DNA from: Halorubrum sp. BOL3-1
Lineage (GTDB): Archaea > Halobacteriota > Halobacteria > Halobacteriales > Haloferacaceae
Assembly: GCF_004114375.1 (NCBI RefSeq)
Contig: NZ_CP034693.1
Coordinates: forward strand, 62,001-126,000
Reading direction: 5' to 3'
DNA: 64,000 nucleotides
Shown piece after piece: positions 9,527 through 63,703 of the stretch. Below the pieces are notes generated by a model. The model ran no database searches and was not told where the DNA came from. It saw only the letters and a program-made list of their open reading frames with translations. Both the position numbers and the translations under genes were made by a program. How positions within the stretch are numbered: position 1 is the stretch's first letter; the number at the start of each line of letters is the position of its first letter.

Positions 9527-10192
9527 CTATCCCCGAAGGAGCCGAACGACCTCGTTGGTCACCTCCGTCTGGACGGCCAAGATGTACTGAACACCGGGTT
9601 CGAGTACCGTATCCGGGCCCGGGAACGCGCCCGTGCGCTGTTCGGCCACGACAAATGCGCCCCGGGGGAACGAGATGGCGTCCAGTGACTTTCCGGCAGC
9701 CGGCGCTCCCTCGGCGACCTCGATCTCGATGAGTTCCAGCCGATCGGTGATCTCCTCGATCGTCCGGACCCCACCGCCGCTGACATCGATGATGTCGTTG
9801 GCCGCCGCATGCGCGGCCAGCTCCTCGGGATACACGACGGCGTCGACGATCTCTTCGAACTCGTCGTGCTCGCCGTGGTCGATCCGGGCGACGGTCTTGA
9901 TCTCGGGCGAGAGCCGCTGGGCGGTCATGCAGATCCCGACGTTCGTCATCGCGCCGTAACTCGTGAGTCCCGCGATGACGTCGGTGCGTTCCAGTTGTGC
10001 TTCTCGGAGCACGCTCGGGCGACCACCCTCGCCGTGGATGACGGAGGCGATGTACTGGTCGCTCAGGAACTGGACGCGGTCGTCGTCCTTTTCGATGATG
10101 ACGATATCGTGGCCACGATTATCCAGTCGCTGTGCCGTGTGGTATCCGACGCGTCCGCCACCGACGATGACGATCCGGAGGTCCTTTTTCAT
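9527..10192 (-). CDS. trkA: TrkA-type potassium regulatory (RCK) protein
   Basis: 221 aa. A Rossmann TrkA-N domain (residues 5-125, with VIVGGGRVGYHTAQRL as the NAD(H)-binding loop and IIEKDD ending strand two) is followed by a TrkA-C domain (140-220). It is probably a cytoplasmic gating subunit for a cation transporter. It is transcribed after the APC-family gene with a 59-bp gap, so that transporter may be its partner. TrkH and another RCK protein lie 20-25 kb away. Confidence 0.85.
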   Translation of the reverse strand: MKKDLRIVIVGGGRVGYHTAQRLDNRGHDIVIIEKDDDRVQFLSDQYIASVIHGEGGRPSVLREAQLERTDVIAGLTSYGAMTNVGICMTAQRLSPEIKTVARIDHGEHDEFEEIVDAVVYPEELAAHAAANDIIDVSGGGVRTIEEITDRLELIEIEVAEGAPAAGKSLDAISFPRGAFVVAEQRTGAFPGPDTVLEPGVQYILAVQTEVTNEVVRLLRG

Positions 10193-49713: not shown

Positions 49714-49873
49714 GCAGTACTTCCTCTGTATTGACCGATCCGACCTGCTAGTTTTTCGAGGAGCTTCTGTTCGAAATACGCGTATTCTCTTCAGCACACA
49801 CTAGATTACCATCTCAGAAGACCGTAAAACGCGAGATTTAGGTACTTTGGGTAGCTTATACTCGTGATACTTG

Positions 49874-50305
49874 ATGATCGAGATTCCTGATTCGCTTCGC
49901 TCTGTGTTCAGTGCTTAACTCGAACAACGTGATGGGTCATATGTCGTCGATATACCGACGAGTGAAATCGAACATGACGCGCTCGCTGCCGACGAAACGT
50001 ACCGCGTCGCGATCTTGGCGTCAGAATCCTCGACAGACCAGACGACTCACCAAGAGCAACAGCAATCGACTACACAAGATACGGCTCCGACGTCGAACGG
50101 TCCTCCGGTAAATGAAGGTGAGGTCCGCGACGTGACGATCGAGACGACTGGTGATCAGGGCGACGGCATCGCGAAGGTTGAACGCGGCTACGTCGTGATC
50201 GTTCCTGGCGGGCAACCAGGTGATGAGCCGACGGTCGAGATCGAGCAGGTCAAAGCAAACGTCGCGTTTGCCAGTATCGTCGAACGCGACTCACGAGCGC
50301 TATAG
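49874..50305 (+). pseudogene. TRAM-domain protein, nonsense-disrupted copy
   Basis: Codon 15 is TAA (49916-49918), where the intact copy at 62959-63390 has CAA. The rest of the frame is open and nearly identical, including the C-terminal TRAM domain (VRDVTIETTGDQGDGIAKVERGYVVIVPGG). TRAM is a small beta-barrel RNA-binding domain. Only a weak TTG start (50015) remains downstream, so this copy is probably not expressed as full protein. Confidence 0.85.
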
Positions 50306-50371
50306 CGTCGATTTATCACCGACCGCCTGTAGGGCCAGCGTCGTTGAGATTCTAACTGTCTCGGCTCACGT

Positions 50372-50719
50372 TTACTCACTTCCCGGCTTGCCGACGTACT
50401 CAGATTTCATTGTCCCATTCTCACGATAGTAGCGGTAGAGATATGGACCGTGCATATCCGCGGGATCCCCGCTGGTGCATTTACAGCTGTCGTCGCCACA
50501 GGTGACTTTCTCTTTGACGACGGTTCCGTTCTCCGCATTGTCGGGTTCGTCAACGGGGTCGGCGGTCTCGGGAAGCTCGTTGATGCCGACCGACTGGCCA
50601 CGATACTCGATGAGCGCCTCGATGTAGCGCTGTACCTCGTCGAGTGTCTCCGTATCCTGTTTCGGGAGCCCCTCCGCGAGATACTTCGGGAGCGAGGCGG
50701 GTGGTGACGGCTGCTCCAC
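50372..50719 (-). CDS. DUF6788 family protein, copy A
   Basis: 115 aa from GTG 50719 (a stop lies two codons upstream in frame). The N-terminal half is helical (LPKYLAEGLPKQDTETLDEVQRYIEALIEY). The C-terminal part has a compact Cys motif (VTCGDDSCKCTSG) followed by HGPYLYRYYRENGTMKSEYVG, typical of the haloarchaeal DUF6788 family. It is probably a small nucleic-acid-binding or regulatory protein, but the function is unknown. Its start codon lies within an 11-bp inverted repeat. Confidence 0.75.
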   Translation of the reverse strand: MEQPSPPASLPKYLAEGLPKQDTETLDEVQRYIEALIEYRGQSVGINELPETADPVDEPDNAENGTVVKEKVTCGDDSCKCTSGDPADMHGPYLYRYYRENGTMKSEYVGKPGSE

Positions 50720-50770
50720 GCCTTATGTAACAACTGGAGCCACTTTAGCGCTCGCTTGATACATAAGGCG
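50719..50770. promoter_or_regulatory. 11-bp inverted repeat before DUF6788, copy A
   Basis: CGCCTTATGTA (50719-50729) and TACATAAGGCG (50760-50770) are perfect inverted repeats 30 bp apart. One arm covers the DUF6788 start codon and the other flanks the end of the zinc-ribbon gene. The same pair is conserved in the other arm at 62494-62545. It could be an autoregulatory operator or a transcript hairpin. Confidence 0.55.
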
Positions 50771-50806
50771 CTGAACCCGCTCCGCCAACTGTGAGTTCTT
50801 CAGCAA

Positions 50807-50962
50807 TCACTCGAGATCGTAGGCCGCAATCTCGTGAGCGCCACACTGTGGACATTCATCGACGTTCTTCTCGACGCTGTATCCACAGTGACGGCATTCG
50901 TAGATGGTTGTCGATGACGGCTCAGGTCTGACGATTTGCTGGATGAACTGTTTACTGAGCAT
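50807..50962 (-). CDS. Zinc-ribbon microprotein 2, copy A
   Basis: 51 aa. An N-terminal helix (SKQFIQQIVRPEP) leads to a rubredoxin-like ribbon CRHCGYSVEKNVDECPQCGAHE with four Cys. Its ATG overlaps the previous microprotein by 11 bp (ATGCTCAGTAA), so the two are translationally coupled. The family matches haloarchaeal CPxCG zinc proteins. Function unknown. Confidence 0.7.
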   Translation of the reverse strand: MLSKQFIQQIVRPEPSSTTIYECRHCGYSVEKNVDECPQCGAHEIAAYDLE

Positions 50963-51119
50963 TGATGGGATCGACGATCTCGCCACAGCCGGGACATTCG
51001 GCCCACACACCCGGTTCACCGCTAGCTGTTTCATACTCGATGATCGCGTGTCGATCGGTCACTGTCTCGCCGCAGAATGAGCAGGTGCCACGGACCGTCT
51101 CTGGATTATCGGGGGTCAT
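50952..51119 (-). CDS. Zinc-ribbon microprotein 1, copy A
   Basis: 55 aa from ATG 51119. It has two Cys pairs, CSFC (residues 13-16) and CPGC (42-45), separated by a HAIIEYETASGEPGVWAE strand segment. The conserved frame in both inverted arms, with mostly silent or conservative changes, supports a real gene. Confidence 0.68.
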   Translation of the reverse strand: MTPDNPETVRGTCSFCGETVTDRHAIIEYETASGEPGVWAECPGCGEIVDPINAQ

Positions 51120-51347
51120 TCTCACAAGATCGGCGGCTTCTTTCAGGGGGAGAGGGAGCGTGTGACACTGTTTTGGAGCTGGTTCGGTCAGTGAGACCGA
51201 CTCAGCTTTGCTCCCTCACCTCGTGATTACAGACTCTGTGACTTATACCTCGGGCGAGCGGGGCGAAAGTACTACTCTAAGAAATCAGCGTGACCGCGGG
51301 TCGCAAGTAGCCATCGCGCAGTTGTAATCTGTGACGAAGGTAGACAC

Positions 51348-51437
51348 CTAGTGCCGCTTCAACAATTGGGTGCTAGAAACGACCGATGAACGGCCTGTAG
51401 AAGGAATCTAGCAGATCACAACTGAAGGCCCACTAGC
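51348..51437 (+). repeat. About 90-bp direct repeat, left copy
   Basis: CTAGTGCCGCTTCAAC... to ...CTGAAGGCCCACTAGC recurs in the same orientation at 52301-52391 with scattered changes (roughly three quarters identical by eye). The repeats flank the MITE and SnoaL-like gene. It begins exactly where the left inverted arm ends. Confidence 0.75.
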
Positions 51438-52300: not shown

Positions 52301-52391
52301 CTACTGCCGTTTCAACGATAATCTGCTAGAAACGGCCGATAGACGATCTGTAGCAGGAGTCTAGTAGATCACGACTGAAGGCCCACTAGCT
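52301..52391 (+). repeat. About 90-bp direct repeat, right copy
   Basis: Second copy of the sequence at 51348-51437. It ends at the stop codon of the leftward HNH gene. No gene lies inside. Confidence 0.75.
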
Positions 52392-52863
52392 ATGTCGTCT
52401 CTGAGTTATCACCGTCTGTCGTCTCTGACGTCGAGTCAGTGTCGGATTCAGTCGTTTCGTGAGACTCATCAGGTGATTCTGACTGTTTATCGTGGGATCG
52501 TGCGCTCTGTGGTGTGCCCTCATCATCGCCGTAGAACCACTCGGCTTGTGCGCTGTTGAGCCGTGGCCCCTCGTAGTACACTTTATGATGCGCATTCCAC
52601 GCATTCCGGTGTTCGATCGGGAGTTGGCGATGCCACTGCCTGTATGGAGTCGCGTCCGTCTTGTGGACGTGGATATGACAGCGCTGACACAGTGGGATCA
52701 CGTTGGCGACGCAGTCGTCGGTATCGTCGCCGTTGATGTGGTGGAGTGAGTTTACCAACGGCCGATTGTCACTCCTAACCCAGTCTTCAGGTGGCCGCCC
52801 ACAGATGAGGCACTCAGTACCCCACGCATCGCGGACAGCCTGCCGAAATGAGCCGTCAGACAT
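52390..52863 (-). CDS. HNH endonuclease, paralogue 1
   Basis: 157 aa. The N-terminal half is an HNH/zinc domain: CLICGRPPEDW, SLHHINGDDTDDCVANVIPLCQRCHIHVHK, with the paired CxxC motifs and the His-His-Asn catalytic segment. The C-terminal tail is acidic and of low complexity. It is closely related to the gene at 54982-55515. It nicks or cuts DNA, and target and role are not known. Confidence 0.85.
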   Translation of the reverse strand: MSDGSFRQAVRDAWGTECLICGRPPEDWVRSDNRPLVNSLHHINGDDTDDCVANVIPLCQRCHIHVHKTDATPYRQWHRQLPIEHRNAWNAHHKVYYEGPRLNSAQAEWFYGDDEGTPQSARSHDKQSESPDESHETTESDTDSTSETTDGDNSETT

Positions 52864-54038
52864 GAGTTTCGGCCCCCTGTGAGCGCTTGCCTACGATGGG
52901 TCCACTGAGAGTTGGCAGCGTGTTCAGGCTGCCAGCTAGCAGTCGCTGTCTGAGAGTGTGAGTCGATACGACTATTCGTTCGTGTCGCATGTGTAACCAC
53001 CACTCCAACCGTGAAACAGTCGCGTTGGTGGCGGTCGCATACGTTGTGTATTTTGGTTGCTGCATGGTTCTGAGCGGGATCGGATGCGGGTCATCCCTTT
53101 TCCGAATCCCTCTCACTCCACTCGAGGGATACAAACAGATCTACAAGCGCATCAATTTCCACAACACAGCTCTGGTCGTATCATGAAACGTCGACTGATC
53201 GATGTGCCGTTGACAGCGTATGTTTACGACACCTGAACCCCACATCGCAGTTGTGATACACATATTATTGATATCTCGTTGTATCGGCTCGTGTATTCGG
53301 TTGCACCGGCGAGGACTTCGACACTGCACGCCGGACGGTGGATGTATTCCACGCCAGGCGAGTTTAGACGATCTTGGGTAAATAGAGAGCCGCCGTGTAG
53401 ATCATATCTGAGAAGTTTGTTGATAGAATAATTATACTGAGGATAATCTGTGTAATTATCCATAGTTACTCACTTCGACCTAATGTGAAAACGGGTGTCC
53501 TGACGATTACAGTCAAGTACGCTTACTTGTCTCTATTGTTTGCCTCCAAGATAGAATAATCAGATTTTGATCGCGACAGATAGTGCTAATATTGGCAGCA
53601 AAAGTCTGGAGACACGTATATTTGATATAATCATACTATATATTATCTTTATTAGGATCGAGTGCTAGTCGTGTTTGCTTGGAACAACCAGACTAGCAAG
53701 AGCGAATCGCAAGACGGGAACGAGACGGGTAAAATATCGTTGTGCAATCGTGGCTCCGGAAGTTCCGCGGACTGTCCAAGCAGGGCTTGGAACAGTCCGC
53801 TCATACGTTCGGCCTCATCAGATCGCTGAACCTCACCGGCGCATCCGTCGATATTACCATCGATTGCCTTGTTATGGGGGCTTTCCGCAGTTCTACATAA
53901 GAGCGTTTGGTCTTAACCAACAATCGTCTATTAGACACCAGATTGTTGGTTAACGAAATCCGTCTGTAGTTCCACATAGCTCCGAGCAATGCTGGTAGGG
54001 AAATTCCGAGATACAGTATAAAAAGAGAGAAGACGGCC
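52864..54038. other. AT-rich region with a 41-bp palindrome
   Basis: No convincing gene in about 1.2 kb, and composition is AT-richer than in the neighbours. TTAACCAACAATC (53913-53925) and GATTGTTGGTTAA (53941-53953) are perfect 13-bp inverted repeats. Their 15-bp spacer itself contains GTCTA-T-TAGAC. This could be a replication or partition site, a terminator or an operator. Confidence 0.45.
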
Positions 54039-54278
54039 TTAACGGTCGCGAGCGACTGCCGGGCAATCGTGGACGGCAATCCGTTCTGGGAGCCCGGTCG
54101 CTCCACAGACGGGACACTCCACGAGCGGCGTCGGCGGCAGGTTGCGACACTGTTCGCGGGCTGCCTCGAGATGCGCGCGGACAGCGGGCGACTCACACCG
54201 CGTGATCGCCTGTGCGAGATGCATCTCGAGTGCGTCGCGAGCCGTCCGTTCGGGCATGCGTCTCTCGCGACCAGTCAT
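54039..54278 (-). CDS. Small C2HC-type zinc protein
   Basis: 79 aa from ATG 54278, or 72 from ATG 54257. A helical N-terminal part (ERTARDALEMHLAQAITRCESPAVRAHLEAAREQC) precedes VECPVCGATGLPERIAVHDC, a C-C-H-C zinc site. The start overlaps the stop of a 25-codon upstream frame (TGATGA). A conserved CCCGATTGGGG motif lies about 160 bp upstream. Function unknown. Confidence 0.65.
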   Translation of the reverse strand: MTGRERRMPERTARDALEMHLAQAITRCESPAVRAHLEAAREQCRNLPPTPLVECPVCGATGLPERIAVHDCPAVARDR

Positions 54279-54981
54279 CGCAATCTTCCCGGTGGTCGGA
54301 TGGCGGTGGTCAAATGTCGAGACGACGGTCTGTCGGTAGTCGTCTTATCCATAGTGTCGAGGCGAGAACGGCCGCTGACCACACCAGCATCACCGAAATC
54401 TGGAGTGACCAACGCACTCAACTTTCTCACCTCACCCCAATCGGGAGATACAAATGATCTATCTCAAACCAATCCAACCATCCACTACCGCCGCACCACC
54501 ACGAGTCCATCACGTATCGACGCAGGCGAAGACAGCACCACAACCGCACCGCAGGTCCCGTAGCCAGAAGAAAAAAGTCGCATTGACGTTGTTGTCACTG
54601 GGGGGTAGCTACAGTGTTGCTCACTATCGATGGGCTTTCCCCATCGACATCCGCTCGAAGCCCCCAAGTCGGTGACCCCGAGTGAACCATGTACTCCAGA
54701 TTCCTTTGGCAGCCGACCCCAGCTCGGGACCGCAACTCCCAACTGAAACAGGGAGCCCAAACCACGGTGACGGCCTGATCGCTTGTTAGGCGACCTACAT
54801 GGGTTGCAACCTTTTGCTTACCTCCACCTGCCGCACGCGACAGGTGGCTTCTCCACGCTACCAGGGCATACTTATCCTAAAATTTCCCCTACTCATATAA
54901 GAAGGTCAGTATTTTTCTAAAAATGGACTTAACCAAGAGCAGAGACGCTACACCGCAAGAAGTTGGCCCTAATGTCGGGCG
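54279..54981. other. Intergenic region with operator copy 1 and a hairpin
   Basis: It holds the shared operator at 54428-54454 and a short frame (54352 back to 54276, 25 aa, MDKTTTDRPS...) coupled to the zinc protein. A hairpin CCACCTG/CAGGTGG lies at 54824-54830 with 54841-54847, and the palindrome GGTTGCAACC near 54802-54811. No larger gene seen. Confidence 0.4.
54428..54454 (-). promoter_or_regulatory. Shared operator/promoter motif, copy 1
   Basis: On the reverse strand this reads TTTGTAT, then CTCCCGATTGGGG, then TGAGGTG. The same arrangement recurs at 55665-55691 and 58388-58414, each before leftward genes of this segment. The TATA-like part followed by a short inverted repeat suggests a repressor site between TATA box and transcription start. 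Confidence 0.6.
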
Positions 54982-55515
54982 TTATAACGCAGAGTTGTCG
55001 TCTTCGTCACGGTCGACATTGCCGTCATCGGCTTGGTCAGACTCGCCACAACCATCGCCGGTGTGATCGTCAGGAAGCAAGTCGATATCAGGTGCTTCGA
55101 ACTCATCAGGGTCGAAACCCTCGCGTTCATGGATGAGATACTTTACACTCACTGGGACGCCTCCATCGTCGCCGAACTGGTTCACGGCTTCTTCACGAGT
55201 CAGGCGTGGCCCCTCGTAGTATTCGTGGTAGTAGGCGTTCCATGCATGACGGTGTTCGATCGGGAGCTGCCGATGCCATACCCGGTAGGGTGGCTCGTCC
55301 ACTTTGTGGATGTGGACGTGACAGCTCTGACACAGCGGGATTACGTTCTCGACACGGTGGTCCGTATCGTCGCCGTTGACATGGTGGAAGGAGAGTTTGT
55401 CTTGGTTGCGCGCTCCGTAATCGGTCTCAAGCCATTCCTCTGGCGTTCGACCGCAGACTACGCATTGCCGGCCCCAGCGGTCGAAGACTGCTTGTTCAAG
55501 ATGTTCTGGTCGCAT
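54982..55515 (-). CDS. HNH endonuclease, paralogue 2
   Basis: 177 aa from ATG 55515, which overlaps the stop of a small upstream frame (TAATG). HNH core: CVVCGRTPEEW, LSFHHVNGDDTDHRVENVIPLCQSCHVHIHK, then the paralogue-shared WHRQLPIEHRHAWNA. The acidic C-terminal tail is longer than in paralogue 1. It is preceded by operator copy 2. The nearby C5 methyltransferase operon carries the same operator, so a nuclease-methylase pairing is possible but unproven. Confidence 0.85.
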   Translation of the reverse strand: MRPEHLEQAVFDRWGRQCVVCGRTPEEWLETDYGARNQDKLSFHHVNGDDTDHRVENVIPLCQSCHVHIHKVDEPPYRVWHRQLPIEHRHAWNAYYHEYYEGPRLTREEAVNQFGDDGGVPVSVKYLIHEREGFDPDEFEAPDIDLLPDDHTGDGCGESDQADDGNVDRDEDDNSAL

Positions 55516-55667
55516 TAGTTGATGTGAATGGCCGCTCGCGTGGCTAGTCGTCTGGACTCTGTCGACAGTGTGTATCCACACGAAAACGCGAGCGACAAGT
55601 TGGTTGGAAATCGAGACGGTTCTGTGGGAATTTTCTCCTGTGCGGTGTTTCTCTTTTGATTGTTCAC
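55515..55667 (-). CDS. Possible leader peptide or small protein before HNH
   Basis: 50 codons from GTG 55667, placed just after the operator inverted repeat. It ends with TAATG, overlapping the HNH start. Composition is polar with a basic centre, and no domain is recognised. The coupling suggests it is translated, but it could be a chance frame. Confidence 0.35.
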   Translation of the reverse strand: MNNQKRNTAQEKIPTEPSRFPTNLSLAFSCGYTLSTESRRLATRAAIHIN

Positions 55668-55691
55668 CTCACCCCAATCGGGGAATAAAAA
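55665..55691 (-). promoter_or_regulatory. Shared operator/promoter motif, copy 2
   Basis: On the reverse strand a TTTTTATT TATA-like stretch is followed at once by the perfect inverted repeat CCCC-GATT-GGGG and TGAGGTG. It precedes the HNH unit. This is the best-conserved copy. Confidence 0.65.
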
Positions 55692-55810
55692 CACTCCCAC
55701 GCCGCTTCCTGACAGTCATTCAGTCTCAAGCGAAAAGTGAACTACAGGAGGGCTTCGGGGTTGACAAGCTGATTAAGCAAACCACCTCATATGGGGCGAA
55801 CACGGGTTAC

Positions 55811-57352
55811 TCATCCAGACACTGCTACATGCTGAGATACGAGCGGACCGGTCACTGGCTGGGCAGTCCCGTTCCCGTAGTATTCGACGAGATACGGCTC
55901 GATGAGTCCACGCTTGATCGCCGAAGCTGGGATCGTCGGGTGCGGCTCGCTGATGTCATGCGTCCGCGGGCGCTGGCCAGAGCGTTCACCGTAAAAGGGA
56001 ACCAGGTACGGCGTCACGCTGTACCCTTGGTCGATCCGGCCTGCGACGATCGTGTGGAGGGGCTTTTCGAGGTACGTCTTGTTCGAGAAGAGGCCACGCT
56101 GCTTTCCGTTCTTCGGGAGAACGAACGGCGACGCAGTGAACTTGCTGATCGCGCCTCTGCTCGCGACGGTCGGCAGGGGATTCTCGGTAACGGGCTTTGC
56201 CTGAGCGCCTCCATGCTGGCCGAGGACGTAGGGCGTACACAGTGCGAACTTCTGGCCCCCGGAGGTCACCGTATCCGGCGACTCTGTGACGGGGCGAGTA
56301 GAGGACGTTCCGTAGTACTTGACCAGGAAGGGGTCGGACACCGACTGCGCGACGAGCTCGGCGTCTGCCGCCGGCACGATGTTCTCACGCATCTCGAACA
56401 CTTCGTCACGGCCGATGTTCGCGAGCGCGTCGGCGAACGGCTCCAGCATCTCGCTCCCGTGACGCCGGACCCCCTCGGCGATCCGTTGCATCGTCGTGTT
56501 CTTCAACGGCTTTCGCCGCCCGTCCTCGAGGTCGCGGCTCCAGATGGACTCGCCGGGATCGCTCCAGTCGATGATGTCCGCAGCGGTCCGCCACTCTTGG
56601 GTACCGGGGACGCTCCCGTCCTCGCTGTGGGTCTGTTTCGGCCAAGACACGCCGCTGTCCTTTCGGCCGGCGACGAACAGCCGCCGCCTCGATGTCGCAT
56701 CCCCGTAGTCAGCGGCGTTGAGGATCTTCCAGTCGACCGCGAAGCCCTCGATGTTGAGTGCGTTGATCCAGTTGTCGAAGTATTCGCCCTTCTTGCCGTC
56801 GATGACCTCGTTGTTGTCGTCGAGCGGCCCCCAACTCCGGAATTCAGGCACATTCTCGAACAACAGATTGCGGACGTCGAGCCGCTCGACCCAGTCGAGG
56901 ATTTCCCTCGGCGTCGCGCGTGAGTCCGGGTCTTTCGGCCCGCCACCACGGGCGGAAGAGAAGTAGGTACAGTCCGGACAGCCGATGAGGAGGTGGATCG
57001 TATCGCTACTCTCCAATCCCGTGCGCTCGTCCTTGATGATGTCTCGAGGGCGGAGTTCCTGAATTTTCGAATGGAAGTGGGTGGCCCAGGGGTAGTTCTC
57101 GTTGTGGGTGTCGATCGCGCAGGACCAATGGTTCACCGCGATTACTTCGGCGATCTCCTCGACGGGCTCATCGACCTCGTCGGCGATACGGCTCAGAACT
57201 CGAATTGCGCCCGAGCTCATCCCGCCAGCGCCGGCGAACAGGTCGACTACGTTGATCTTTTCGCCGGCCTCGATCGTCTCGAAGAGGCTGGCTGCGGGAC
57301 CAGTCTTGTTGATGGAACTTTGCGAATTCGTATCTGCGCTGTTGGTTGCCAT
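55811..57352 (-). CDS. C5-cytosine DNA methyltransferase, 3'-shortened
   Basis: 513 aa. Motif I is VVDLFAGAGGMSSG (about 35). Motif IV is GCPDCTYFSSARGG with the catalytic Cys. Motif VI is ENVPEF and motif VIII ends SRRRLFVAGR. Repeated segments with SPFVLPKNG, YLVPFYGERS and YLVEYYGNG follow. The final GNAVP-type motif X that closes the fold is absent and the frame ends abruptly (PVTGPLVSQHVAVSG), so the gene seems to have lost its 3' end. It is last in an operon with the two genes to its right. Activity is doubtful. Confidence 0.85.
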   Translation of the reverse strand: MATNSADTNSQSSINKTGPAASLFETIEAGEKINVVDLFAGAGGMSSGAIRVLSRIADEVDEPVEEIAEVIAVNHWSCAIDTHNENYPWATHFHSKIQELRPRDIIKDERTGLESSDTIHLLIGCPDCTYFSSARGGGPKDPDSRATPREILDWVERLDVRNLLFENVPEFRSWGPLDDNNEVIDGKKGEYFDNWINALNIEGFAVDWKILNAADYGDATSRRRLFVAGRKDSGVSWPKQTHSEDGSVPGTQEWRTAADIIDWSDPGESIWSRDLEDGRRKPLKNTTMQRIAEGVRRHGSEMLEPFADALANIGRDEVFEMRENIVPAADAELVAQSVSDPFLVKYYGTSSTRPVTESPDTVTSGGQKFALCTPYVLGQHGGAQAKPVTENPLPTVASRGAISKFTASPFVLPKNGKQRGLFSNKTYLEKPLHTIVAGRIDQGYSVTPYLVPFYGERSGQRPRTHDISEPHPTIPASAIKRGLIEPYLVEYYGNGTAQPVTGPLVSQHVAVSG

Positions 57353-57418
57353 GTATGTGTGTGGTTTGAGTGGTGTTGGTGATGCCCGCCAAGGCAGGCA
57401 AGCATCCGAAATCGCGTC

Positions 57419-57637
57419 CTACGCTTCGGACTCGGCTTCTGACTGCTCCTCAAAAGCGTCGTCGACGGTGATCGGGCCGTCTCGGTAGAGGCTCCGGAGT
57501 TCTGCTTCGCTCATCGCGTCGAAGTGGTCTTCTGCTGCCGCAGCGAGTTCCTCGTCGTCCAGTTCGTCCGGGGGCTCGTCGAACTCTTCGGTCACCGACT
57601 CAGCGAGAACGGCCACGAAATTGACGTGGTGGCTCAT
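57419..57637 (-). CDS. Small acidic protein of the methyltransferase operon
   Basis: 72 aa from ATG 57637, which overlaps the previous gene's stop (ATGA). Very acidic, mostly helical (FDEPPDELDDEELAAAAEDHFDAMSEAELRSLY). No known domain. Confidence 0.6.
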   Translation of the reverse strand: MSHHVNFVAVLAESVTEEFDEPPDELDDEELAAAAEDHFDAMSEAELRSLYRDGPITVDDAFEEQSEAESEA

Positions 57638-58356
57638 ACCGCTACCCCCCACGCCGGTGACTTGTCTTCATCCGGCTCGACGAGTGTCTTCGGGGAGTCG
57701 CCTTCCCATTCGGTGCCGTCGAGAGCCGCTTCGATCGCTGCCTCGATGTTCCCCTTGTCGTCCCCGCCGACAATGTAGTTCGCGTCGTCGACGGCGCTGT
57801 CATCGATTTCCCAGTCAAGATCTGCTTGGTCGTTCACGAAGACCTCGCGTACCGGGTCCCAGTGAAGTTCGCAGCTCATCCACCGCGAGGTGTTTGCGTC
57901 CGTGTCCGGGAACACGGGTTCGACGACGGTGATCGGGTCGACGCCGTCGTCCTCGGTTCGTTGTTCGGGGATCGCTGGCCACTCTCGCTCTCCCTCGTTT
58001 GCCTGCATCGCGAAGACGGTCGCCACCCATTCGTCGAGTTCCGTTTCGACCCCCGTGAGCGGTCGCTCCCCGTTCTTGAGGTCGAGGATTCCGTACGCCC
58101 CGATGTCGCGGATCTTCTCCGTAGCGTCGTTGATCTCGAATTTTTCTGCGGTGAATTCGTGGAGAAGTCGCTGGTACGTTGTCCGTGCAACCCGAATCGT
58201 CTCTTCTGCGTATACGAATTCGATTCGAACGTACGCATACCCCTCTGCGACGAGCCCCCAGTCTTGACCGTTCAGGGGGTCGTCTATTGGGAGGCCAATT
58301 CGTTCGACCGCTTCGTCCAAACTCGGCATGTATACGATTGTGCGTTCGTGGTCCAT
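57634..58356 (-). CDS. Hypothetical protein heading the methyltransferase operon
   Basis: 240 aa from ATG 58356. An in-frame ATG at 58401 lies inside the operator repeat and is less likely. Acidic alpha/beta protein with no signal or membrane segment. Noticeable segments are ERTIVYMPSLDEAVERIGLPIDD and VARTTYQRLLHEFTAEKFEINDATEKIRDIG. No family recognised. Operator copy 3 lies directly before it, and it is followed by overlapping small and methyltransferase genes. Confidence 0.6.
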   Translation of the reverse strand: MDHERTIVYMPSLDEAVERIGLPIDDPLNGQDWGLVAEGYAYVRIEFVYAEETIRVARTTYQRLLHEFTAEKFEINDATEKIRDIGAYGILDLKNGERPLTGVETELDEWVATVFAMQANEGEREWPAIPEQRTEDDGVDPITVVEPVFPDTDANTSRWMSCELHWDPVREVFVNDQADLDWEIDDSAVDDANYIVGGDDKGNIEAAIEAALDGTEWEGDSPKTLVEPDEDKSPAWGVAV

Positions 58357-58387
58357 GGTTTCTCTCTGGGGTGTCTTCTTCCGTCCA

Positions 58388-58414
58388 CCCCTCACCCCCA
58401 TCGGGGACTACAAA
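58388..58414 (-). promoter_or_regulatory. Shared operator/promoter motif, copy 3
   Basis: On the reverse strand TTTGTAGT is followed by CCCC-GAT-GGGGG and TGAGG. It precedes the three-gene methyltransferase operon by about 30 bp, the closest of the three copies to its start codon. Confidence 0.6.
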
Positions 58415-58472: not shown

Positions 58473-60071
58473 TCAACTGTAATCGGACAAGGATGCTTGC
58501 CCACCGCTTGTGGTCGTGGACTCGTCTTGGAGCTCGTCGACGTCCGGCATCTGGTCTGTGCCTGTTGTCTCTGCGCGTTGTGCGAGCGATACTCGACGTC
58601 GGACCTCTGGGTGCGAGAGTGCTTTCTTCGCTTTGTCCCTGATCGATTCGATCTTGGCGACAATCGATTTTCTCGCTGCCTCGTATTCCACAATCGGACG
58701 CGGGTAGTCGTCTCCGATCGATACGCCTGCGTCTGCTTGAATGTGGAGTGGTGTCTTCTCTGGCCTGTCTAGGTGTTCAGCGGGCAGACCCGATAGCTCC
58801 GGGACCCACTTTTTAATGAACGTCCCGTCTGGGTCGTTGTCTCGGACCTGCTTTCGTGGGTTGTATATCTGCATCAGATTCGTCCCGTCGGCTCCCGCGT
58901 GCAGTTGCCACTGACAGTAGTTGATTGCGGGATCGGCGTCGAGAAGATGATAATAGAAATGGTCGGCTCCGATTTGCCACGGCTGCTGGAGGAGATCACT
59001 GAAGAACGACGCACACATCGCCCGCATCCGGAAGTTAAGCCACCCCGTCTCCTGAAGACAGCGCATCGAAGCGTCCACCAGTGGATACCCTGTCGCTCCC
59101 TCTTTCCACGCTGTGACGTACTCGGGGTTGTGGGACTCTTCGTGGAAATCTTCCATGATGGGATTGACTGCGGTGTCCATCCACCCCGACCAATCGGCGA
59201 GCTTCTGGTTGTAGTGGCGGTTCCAGTACAGTCGAGAGATATACGCTTCCTTCCCCCGTTTGTGGCCGATCTCGGCTGCCACTTTCTGGTAGGCTTGTCG
59301 GATGGACAAACATCCGAACCGGAAGTACGGCGACAGCTGGCTCGTCCCCGAACGGGCGTCTTCTGGGGCAGATATACTGCTGGGATACGCTCCAAGCCGA
59401 TCGGTGAACTCTTCGAGGAGTGCTTGTGCCTGTGTTGTCCCGCCGGTTCGATCGATCGTTTTGTTCGGCGACACTCCGTACCGATCGCCGATTCTTTCGG
59501 GTGTCACGCCCGTGTGGACATCCAGCACGTCGGCCGATTCGCTGTCGAAGGTGTACTGGTCGTCGGTGAGCCATGACTCTACGTGCTCGCTCCAGTTTTC
59601 TCTCGTGTCCTCCACATTGCGTCTAAGCCCGTCGTCGTCGATGAACGAGATGTCACACGCTTCTGCGACGGCGTTGTCTCGTTACAACCCGTATCTCCCG
59701 GTTGGGTCGGCTGTCGTCACGACCTCGTCGACATGTGTGTCTAGGGCTGCCAGCAGATCAACTGGGTCGTCATGGATGAAGGTTAATTCCCCGTTGAGTG
59801 TGCGATACTGTCCTGCCAAATCGGCGAGACACTCGTGGAGAAATTGGATTCTGGCGTCACACGCAAGGCCGCCTTCGCTGTAGAAACTCGAATCGAAGAC
59901 GAAGAGGGGAAGAATCGACTCATGCTCTCGTGTCGCGTATTCGATTCCAGGGTGGTCCTGTGTCCGAAGATTTCGCCGGTGCCAAACGACAGCCAGATCG
60001 TCGACTGTTTCGAGGGCTGTTTCGATCGCCTCTCGTTTGGTGTTTTGTGTCTGGTTTGTGTTTTGGTCCAT
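58473..60071 (-). pseudogene. phr: Cryptochrome/photolyase family gene with internal stop
   Basis: A full-length photolyase frame (532 codons) is interrupted only by TAA at 59682-59684, codon 130. Before it lies the N-terminal antenna domain (VVWHRRNLRTQDHPGIEYA, PLFVFDSSFYSEGG, DPTGRYGL). After it comes the FAD-binding domain (TSQLSPYFRFGCLSIRQAY, SRLYWNRHYNQKLADW, ETGWLNFRMRAMCASFFSDLLQQPW, DADPAINYCQWQ). The frame does not shift. It follows the ParB-like gene by one base. Photolyase repairs UV-induced pyrimidine dimers with light, but this copy should make only fragments unless the stop is read through. Confidence 0.85.
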
Positions 60072-60072
60072 G

Positions 60073-60609
60073 TTAATTAAATTGGAGCCCCCACTCCTCG
60101 GCCATCTCGAATAGCTCTTCTGTGTGTAACAGCCCCCATACCAACGCGAACTCGCGGAGGTCTGCCTTGTTGATCTCTGCGTCGTACTGAGCCTCGAACT
60201 CCCGCATCGCTGCCTTCACGAGGTCGTCAACCTCGGAGCTGAGTTCGATGGTGGTCCGATCGCGTCCCGTGGATGTCCCGCTTCGCCATGTGGCGTACGG
60301 GACACGCGGGTCCTCCTCACGATACGCTTGGGCCATCAGCATTCGGGCGAGTTCGGCAGTCGAATAGTCGTCTGTCACGTCGATCTCGTTGAAGGCTCGT
60401 GTCTCGGACGCTCCGCGGGGTTGGGTGGTCTGCTGGTCGTCAACTGCTGTCTGCCCCCGTGACGTGTTCTGTCCGTCTGCGGTGGTCTCCTCGGGCGATG
60501 TGGTCGGTCGCTCTTGCTCTGGTGGCTGTTCTGCGGCTTCGGTCTGGGGGTTGTCGTCGCTCTCCTCGTCTTCGAACGGATCGTCTCCGGAACCACTTCC
60601 AAACCCCAT
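60073..60609 (-). CDS. ParB-like partition partner protein
   Basis: 178 aa. It starts MGFGSGSGDDPF, followed by a long acidic, Gln/Thr/Pro-rich disordered region (to about 75). A C-terminal helical domain follows (ELSSEVDDLVKAAMREFEAQYDAEINKADLREFALVWGL) resembling the ribbon-helix-helix or helical partners that follow parA on haloarchaeal plasmids. It starts 2 bp after the ParA stop. It is expected to bind a centromere-like site, which I have not located. Confidence 0.6.
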   Translation of the reverse strand: MGFGSGSGDDPFEDEESDDNPQTEAAEQPPEQERPTTSPEETTADGQNTSRGQTAVDDQQTTQPRGASETRAFNEIDVTDDYSTAELARMLMAQAYREEDPRVPYATWRSGTSTGRDRTTIELSSEVDDLVKAAMREFEAQYDAEINKADLREFALVWGLLHTEELFEMAEEWGLQFN

Positions 60610-61856: not shown

Positions 61857-62144
61857 AGAATTCATCGTGAGCGAAATGACGCAAGATGTAGAACAGCATG
61901 TCAATGGAATAGATCGGTGTCTACCTTCGTCACAGATTACAACTGCGCGATGGCTACTTGCGACCCGCGGTCACGCTGATTTCTTAGAGTAGTACTTTCG
62001 CCCCGCTCGCCCGAGGTATAAGTCACAGAGTCTGTAATCGTGAGGTGAGGGAGCAAAGCTGAGTCGGTCTCACCGACCGGACCAGCTCCAAAGTAGTGTC
62101 ACACGCTCCCTCTCCCCCTGAAAGAAGCCGCCGATCTTGTGAGA

Positions 62145-62312
62145 ATGACCCCCGATAATCCAGAGACGGTCCGTGGCACCTGCTCATTCTGCAGTGAGAC
62201 AGTGACCGGTCGGCACGCGATCATCGAATATGAAACAGCTAACGGTGAACCGGGCGTGTGGGCCGAATGCCCCGGCTGTGGCAAAATCGTCGATCCCAGC
62301 AATGCTCAGTAA
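62145..62312 (+). CDS. Zinc-ribbon microprotein 1, copy B
   Basis: 55 aa, the homologue of 50952-51119, with CSFC and CPGC pairs. The substitutions preserve all four Cys. Overlaps the next gene by 11 bp. Confidence 0.68.
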   Translation: MTPDNPETVRGTCSFCSETVTGRHAIIEYETANGEPGVWAECPGCGKIVDPSNAQ

Positions 62313-62457
62313 ACAGTTCATCCAGCAGATCGTCAGACCTGAGCCGTCATCGACAACCATCTACGAATGCCGTCACTGTGGATACAGCGTCGAGAAGAAC
62401 GTCGATGAATGTCCACAGTGTGGCGCTCACGAGATTGCGGCCTACGATCTCGAGTGA
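62302..62457 (+). CDS. Zinc-ribbon microprotein 2, copy B
   Basis: 51 aa, predicted identical in sequence to copy A by eye. Four Cys in CRHCGYSVEKNVDECPQC. The strict conservation, compared with changes elsewhere in the arm, suggests selection on this protein. Confidence 0.7.
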   Translation: MLSKQFIQQIVRPEPSSTTIYECRHCGYSVEKNVDECPQCGAHEIAAYDLE

Positions 62458-62493
62458 TTGCTGAAGAACTCACAGTTGGCGGAGCGGGTTCAG

Positions 62494-62545
62494 CGCCTTA
62501 TGTATCAAGCGAGCGCTAAAGTGGCTCCAGTTGTTACATAAGGCG
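62494..62545. promoter_or_regulatory. 11-bp inverted repeat before DUF6788, copy B
   Basis: CGCCTTATGTA (62494-62504) and TACATAAGGCG (62535-62545), identical to the pair in the left arm. The second half ends at the DUF6788 GTG. Confidence 0.55.
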
Positions 62546-62892
62546 TGGAGCAGCCGTCACCACCCGCCTCGCTCCCGAAGTATCTCGCGGAGGGGCTCCC
62601 GAAACAGGATACGGAGACACTCGACGAGGTACAGCGCTACATCGAGGCACTCATCGAGTATCGTGATCAGTCGGTCGACACCGACGGGCTTCCTGAGACA
62701 GCCGAGCCCGTCGACAGGCCCGACAATACGGAAAAAGGGACGGTCGTCAAAGAGAAGGTTACCTGTGGTGACGCGAGCTGTAAGTGCGCCAGCGGGGATC
62801 CCGCGGATATGCACGGGCCGTATCTCTATCGGTACTATCGTGAGAATGGGACGATGAAATCGGAGTACGTCGGGAAACCAAGCAGTGAGTAA
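62545..62892 (+). CDS. DUF6788 family protein, copy B
   Basis: 115 aa from GTG 62545. It differs from copy A mainly in the middle acidic segment (residues 40-65), while the N-terminal helix and the C-terminal CxxxxCxC segment (VTCGDASCKCASG) with HGPYLYRYYRENGTMKSEYVG are kept. Confidence 0.75.
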   Translation: MEQPSPPASLPKYLAEGLPKQDTETLDEVQRYIEALIEYRDQSVDTDGLPETAEPVDRPDNTEKGTVVKEKVTCGDASCKCASGDPADMHGPYLYRYYRENGTMKSEYVGKPSSE

Positions 62893-62958
62893 GCGTGAGT
62901 CGAGACTGTCAGAATCTCAACGACGCCGGTTCTACAGGCGGTCGGTAATAAATCGACG

Positions 62959-63390
62959 TTAGAGCGCCCATGAGTCGTGTGCGACGATGCTGGCAAACGC
63001 AACATTTGCTTTGACCTGCTCGATCTCGACTGTCGGCTCATCACCTGGTTGTCCGCCGGGGACGATCACGACGTAGCCGCGTTCAACCTTCGCGATGCCG
63101 TCGCCCTGATCACCAGTCGTCTCGATCGTCACGTCGCGGACCTCACCTTCATTTACCGGAGGACCGTCCGACGTCGGAGCCGTATCTTGTGTAGTCGATT
63201 GCTGTTGCTCTTGCTGAGTCTTCTGGTCTGTCGAGGGTTCTGACGCCAAGATCGCGACGCGGTACGTTTCGTTGGCAGCGAGCGTGTCATGTTCGATTTC
63301 ACTCGCCGGAATATCGACGACATATGACCCGTCACGTTCTTCGAGTTGAGCACTGAATACAGAGCGAAGCGAATCAGGAATCTCGATCAT
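62959..63390 (-). CDS. TRAM-domain protein, intact copy
   Basis: 143 aa from ATG 63390. The N-terminal part (IEIPDSLRSVFSAQLEERDGSYVVDIPASEIEHDTL) is a small beta domain common to haloarchaeal TRAM proteins. A Gln/Thr/Ser linker follows, then the TRAM barrel (VRDVTIETTGDQGDGIAKVERGYVVIVPGGQPGDEPTVEIEQVKANVAFASIV). TRAM domains bind RNA, and archaeal TRAM proteins have been proposed as cold-shock-like RNA chaperones. Its twin at 49874 carries a nonsense codon. Confidence 0.85.
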   Translation of the reverse strand: MIEIPDSLRSVFSAQLEERDGSYVVDIPASEIEHDTLAANETYRVAILASEPSTDQKTQQEQQQSTTQDTAPTSDGPPVNEGEVRDVTIETTGDQGDGIAKVERGYVVIVPGGQPGDEPTVEIEQVKANVAFASIVAHDSWAL

Positions 63391-63703
63391 CAAGTATCAC
63401 GGGTATAAGCTACCCACAGTACCTAAATCTCGCGTTTTACGGTCCTCTGAGATGGTAATCTGGTGTGTGCTGAAGAGAACGCGCGTATCTCGAACAGAAG
63501 CTCCTCTGAAAACTAGCAGGTCGGATCGGTGCTGACCTATCTACTAACTGGCAAGATATCCGTACAAGATACAGAGGATCAATACAGCACGGCTCTTTCG
63601 TTCATTCTGTTCCTGATCTCCCGAATAATCTGTGCTACTCAAAGTGCTTGTTGCTCAACGTGAAATGGGGTACATATATGCCTATTTGGAAATAAATTGT
63701 AGT

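Follow-up and report, generated by a model that had tools for sequence, protein, structure and literature searches.

Organisation of the locus

The window analysed here, 64,000 nt of a 163-kb plasmid (contig C4), carries four copies of a directional element of about 27 bp, all on the minus strand. Coordinates below are positions in this window, and the sites and the genes behind them are as follows.

52390..52863, minus: second HNH-like protein, paralogous to the HNH endonuclease-like protein below
53109..53135, minus: site 4, first base 53135, TTTGTATCCCTCGAGTGGAGTGAG / TTTGTATCCCTCGAGTGGAGTGAGAGG, 5' of the second HNH gene
54039..54278, minus: 79-aa protein with CxxC motifs (zinc protein), whose relatives keep the element upstream
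54428..54454, minus: site 1, first base 54454, TTTGTATCTCCCGATTGGGGTGAG / TTTGTATCTCCCGATTGGGGTGAGGTG, 5' of the zinc-ribbon protein gene
54982..55515, minus: HNH endonuclease-like protein (PF01844, E 0.0015, below the curated cut-off)
55665..55691, minus: site 2, first base 55691, TTTTTATTCCCCGATTGGGGTGAG / TTTTTATTCCCCGATTGGGGTGAGGTG, 5' of the HNH gene
55811..57352, minus: C5-cytosine DNA methyltransferase (PF00145)
57419..57637, minus: small acidic protein of the methyltransferase operon
57634..58356, minus: first gene of the methyltransferase operon, no Pfam family; its homologue in G411:C31 also has the element upstream
58388..58414, minus: site 3, first base 58414, TTTGTAGTCCCCGATGGGGGTGAG / TTTGTAGTCCCCGATGGGGGTGAGGGG, 5' of the methyltransferase operon

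Read on the minus strand, the sites have the general form TTTnTAnnYCCCGATnGGGGTGAG, i.e. a TATA-like box (TTTnTA) followed by a C-tract, four variable bases, a G-tract and TGAG. The initial annotation had placed three copies at 54428-54454, 55665-55691 and 58388-58414. All three are real and lie there on the minus strand; the count was incomplete, as the fourth copy at 53135 (minus) had been missed. The core CCCCGATTGGGG, said to be common to the three, is exact in site 2 only, with sites 1 and 3 one base off.

All four sites are intergenic and lie upstream of a start codon on the same strand, and the zinc protein, the HNH gene and the methyltransferase operon are indeed preceded by sites in this way, as had been proposed. 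Counted from its first base, the element of the methyltransferase operon lies 59 nt before the start codon, similar to the wider class described below. The zinc protein and HNH genes lie farther away, at 177 nt each (HNH ATG at 55515), with an unusually long leader of about 150 nt. Leader peptides starting from a GTG just 3' of sites 1 and 2 were considered and rejected: in the window these frames stay open and extend over the following start codon, yet they are not conserved in relatives. A paralogous copy of the element is found on contig C2, 5' of an HNH gene copy that has decayed.

Several other features of the region were recorded. The 10.6-kb segment containing the four sites is bounded by an inverted repeat of 1615 bp (94%) at 49734-51348 and 61916-63530, which carries TRAM-domain and DUF6788 genes; this segment may be able to invert. 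A DNA photolyase at 58473-60071 is split into two frames (N-terminal part 59682-60071, C-terminal part 58473-59615), so that either the gene seems to be broken or there is an error in the sequence. Between the HNH and zinc protein genes, a non-coding stretch of about 280 nt (54600-54880, minus) is kept in three other plasmids with 71–84% identity. Its predicted fold has a long-range closing helix, GGUAGC/GCUACC, and ten pairs in which both bases have changed; the window copy has z = −2.2. It matches no Rfam family at threshold, nor does any known RNA family appear elsewhere in the window at Rfam thresholds, and it is possibly a new structured RNA. Elsewhere on the window's own contig, G000:C4, GTTTCAAACCCA/ACGGGTACATCC-type words occur about 30 times on one strand; none lies in the window. 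They suggest a repeat array, possibly CRISPR-like.

Statistical standing of the sites

The 12-bp core with up to two mismatches gave nine matches against 5.5 expected, which is not beyond chance; the 24-bp element does exceed it. When the whole 163-kb plasmid was scored with a 24-bp matrix of the element, the four sites reached 34–40 bits and the next best 12.8, a gap that arises partly by construction because the matrix had been trained on the same site type; the highest score among 30 column-permuted matrices was 18.8. A second, independent matrix, built solely from promoters that precede unrelated genes in other genomes and including no window-type site, ranked the window sites 1–4 on their plasmid (17.3–19.5 bits; next 12.7). 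The strict class pattern is matched exactly by two of the four. Judged by the independent matrix, the window sites are divergent members of a wider haloarchaeal plasmid class.

Conservation in related plasmids

The element precedes the same genes in related plasmids despite diverged flanks, with block identities of 90–93% over 27–30 bp. The block is 27 bp long at 92.6% in Haloarcula sinaiiensis pHsi204, and in Halobacterium noricense it covers 30 bp at 90%, the upstream flanks having diverged; more copies occur in Halorubrum ezzemoulense and in Halobacterium salinarum R1 PHS2. An isolated block that stays conserved beside diverged flanks is typical of a functional site. The proposal of a shared cis-regulatory element at promoters is therefore well supported by this phylogenetic footprint, by its order-wide recurrence and by the independent matrix. 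On G199:C7, two sites at 9545 and 9803 are 258 bp apart and point in opposite directions; one is class-type (126-aa gene family by its flanks) and the other window-type, before an HNH gene, linking both subtypes on one plasmid.

The CCCC-N4-GGGG repeat, if transcribed, could fold as a short hairpin, and the element might then act in RNA as a terminator or attenuator. The arrangement makes this very improbable. The T-rich box lies 5' and not 3' of the repeat, the sites are found at fixed spacing on the start side of genes, and the arms covary weakly. An intrinsic terminator is a hairpin followed by a T-run at a gene end, whereas here the T-box comes before the repeat and the sites come before the genes.

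A wider class on plasmids of Halobacteria

A window-type pattern allowing two mismatches already picked out contigs rich in copies. Of 392 haloarchaeal genomes, 114 contained a looser pattern (TTTnTnnnCCCCnnnnGGGGTGnG / TTTNTNNNCCCCNNNNGGGGTGNG), nearly always on contigs of plasmid size; the reversed-pattern control was zero in every entry listed. The class is defined by a T-box, a C-tract, four bases, a G-tract and TGnG at fixed spacing. An exact scan of 84,980 prokaryote genomes with a slightly stricter pattern returned 72 stretches, 70 of them haloarchaeal and nearly all on plasmids or plasmid-sized contigs. The regulon had been described as private; the element class instead occurs on plasmids throughout Halobacteria. 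The window-type pattern was absent from IMG/VR, where the looser one was found in three stretches only. A tailed virus was considered and set aside on a search that covered one terminase family (PF03237), to which the motif-rich genomes showed no match.

The 88 open reading frames downstream of class sites fall into seven recurrent, unrelated families and singletons. The families are a 126-aa family (26 members), DUF6166 (15), TFB (10), HNH_3 with HTH (8), a MSSEHEQ-type family (6), ArdC-like proteins (6) and probably DUF6735 (4); PCNA and a MarR-type protein are among the singletons. Start codons mostly follow the T-box at 46–60 nt, and at 49 nt in most of the 26 cases of one family. In a set of 49 sites whose flanks are unrelated, the element is sharply bounded at T1 and at about G27, although apparent conservation is inflated by pattern-fixed positions here as in the 392-genome, 84,980-genome and 88-ORF analyses; no clear conserved upstream BRE was seen among these sites. 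On Haloarcula marismortui pNG600, all seven sites scoring above 11 bits in the 30 kb beside a conjugation gene are intergenic, on the coding strand and 39–66 nt before a gene; the matrix used had window-type sites as one training group. TFB and DUF6166 are among the genes that follow.

This breadth bears on the function first suggested for the sites, namely that a repressor coordinates the HNH nuclease and the DNA methyltransferase as in restriction-modification control. The site does stand before both gene types in the window. The reading nevertheless fails, as the two units are separable (relatives have HNH and zinc protein units without the methyltransferase, or the methyltransferase without those units) and the site is common to many genes outside restriction-modification, among them TFB, ArdC-like, DUF6166 and PCNA genes. 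The HNH proteins are moreover small, nothing marks either as a restriction enzyme, and neither a controller gene nor a restriction enzyme was identified in the methyltransferase operon. We regard such a circuit as highly implausible.

Alternatively, the sites could be duplicated promoter cassettes that moved with their genes by recombination and have no common regulator. Paralogy of the two window HNH genes, and of the copy on C2, fits this idea. It is difficult to reconcile with non-homologous genes that have only the element in common amid unrelated flanks, with an element held at about 90% while its flanks diverge, and with its presence before seven unrelated families at constant spacing; cassette transfer is accordingly improbable.

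Large elements with sites mostly in one direction

Two large elements carry many sites. On G411:C31 (297 kb) there are dozens, nearly all on one strand, composed of a T-box, a C-tract, CCGAG and GGGGTAGA or GGGGTGAG; a stricter pattern gave 25 forward and no reverse matches. G299:C4 (226 kb) has 62 forward and two reverse sites of the form TTTGTAC-N3-CAG-N7-TG, with an ATG often 25 or 27 nt after the first T. As judged from their sequences, these sites may represent divergent versions that form an element-wide promoter signal in one direction; G299:C4 lacks the C4/G4 arms and so may be only an analogue of the class. The window's ParA and its partner, together with the leading gene of the methyltransferase operon, have homologues in the same order on G411:C31, and methyltransferase homologues directly follow two sites on G299:C4. 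The small ParA-linked protein of the window (60073-60609) was considered as the binding factor and rejected, its relatives being common in motif-free genomes and contigs. G411:C31 also contains a stretch of about 450 bp (L091 10339-10792) with no annotated gene and about 75% identity to four other large haloarchaeal plasmids.

TFB is encoded on each of the large elements G411:C31, G299:C4 and the Natronomonas marina plasmid, and a variant of the element lies directly 5' of the TFB gene in G411 and N. marina. The element could thus be a core promoter read by dedicated plasmid TFBs, in the manner of phage or plasmid sigma factors, with the TFB genes under their own element. TFB genes are recurrent targets (10 of 88; also L045, L056 and L065). 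In G299, start codons pile up 25–27 nt after the T-box, nearer than the AT-rich peak of host chromosomal genes (about −30 to −26), which hints at an unusual promoter. On the other hand, TFB contacts are expected mainly beside the TATA box, and the class has no clear conserved upstream BRE, a weak GCAGAGAG being present upstream in G411 only. The window plasmid has no recognisable TFB, and TFBs are in any case frequent on haloarchaeal plasmids (252 records). Taken together, a dedicated TFB promoter seems rather unlikely, if worth keeping in mind.

Discussion

The four sites are probably one promoter-proximal element and a candidate site through which a common factor would control a plasmid regulon, as far as their sequence and placement allow us to judge. 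The element would reach from the TATA-like box roughly to the transcription start, and this position is best read as that of a candidate site for a factor controlling RNA polymerase recruitment. One DNA-binding factor, encoded by the host or by the plasmid, would recognise it and switch the genes together. Most simply, it would bind between the TATA box and the start site and in this way block or assist the recruitment of RNA polymerase; it could be a repressor, an activator or a specialised TFB. The dyad symmetry of the element is imperfect and covariation of the dyad in the G411 and G299 sites is weak, so that the site may be something other than a simple dimer operator. On plasmids, the predicted regulated set comprises TFB, ArdC-like proteins, HNH nucleases, a DNA methyltransferase, PCNA, DUF6166 and families without assigned function, which suggests a role in establishment or self-protection of the plasmid.

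A bolder reading is that large haloarchaeal plasmids have a private transcription programme, in which plasmid TFBs or another general factor would read a 27-bp promoter class of their own and drive dozens of genes lying on the same strand, the window sites being remnant fragments. We consider this unlikely.

Among known systems, TrmB, Lrp and similar archaeal repressors have operators between the TATA box and the transcription start. These resemble the element in position and in their partly palindromic core; they differ in sequence, taxonomic range and target genes, and the element was matched to no regulator. In cluster A mycobacteriophages, stoperators serve to stop transcription and are not necessarily promoters. 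Like the sites of G411:C31 and G299:C4, they are present in many asymmetric copies along the direction of transcription across one mobile element, whereas the haloarchaeal element has a TATA-like box built in. Bacterial conjugative plasmids possess coordinated anti-restriction promoters in their leading region, with a similar gene set (ArdC-like, DNA methyltransferase), and the pNG600 sites lie near conjugation genes; the archaeal machinery differs, however, and a single-stranded promoter or transfer would be conjectural here. The C-box operators of controller proteins in type II restriction-modification systems are likewise short, repeated and near a methyltransferase gene. In the window, by contrast, no C protein and no restriction-modification pair were found, and the site is common to unrelated genes.

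No description of the motif and its gene set was found in the open-access literature searched, in agreement with the initial annotation, to which no described system with this motif was known. Regulons with a shared operator on the promoter side are of a known kind; this one is, as far as checked, new in its sequence, range and targets. It provides a concrete sequence tag for a regulon across plasmids of the whole class Halobacteria, containing anti-restriction, DNA-modification, replication and transcription-factor genes, in a field of plasmid biology where few regulators are known. The association suggests roles for families of unknown function such as DUF6166 and the 126-aa family, and with the tag the timing of archaeal plasmid establishment and defence genes becomes directly testable.
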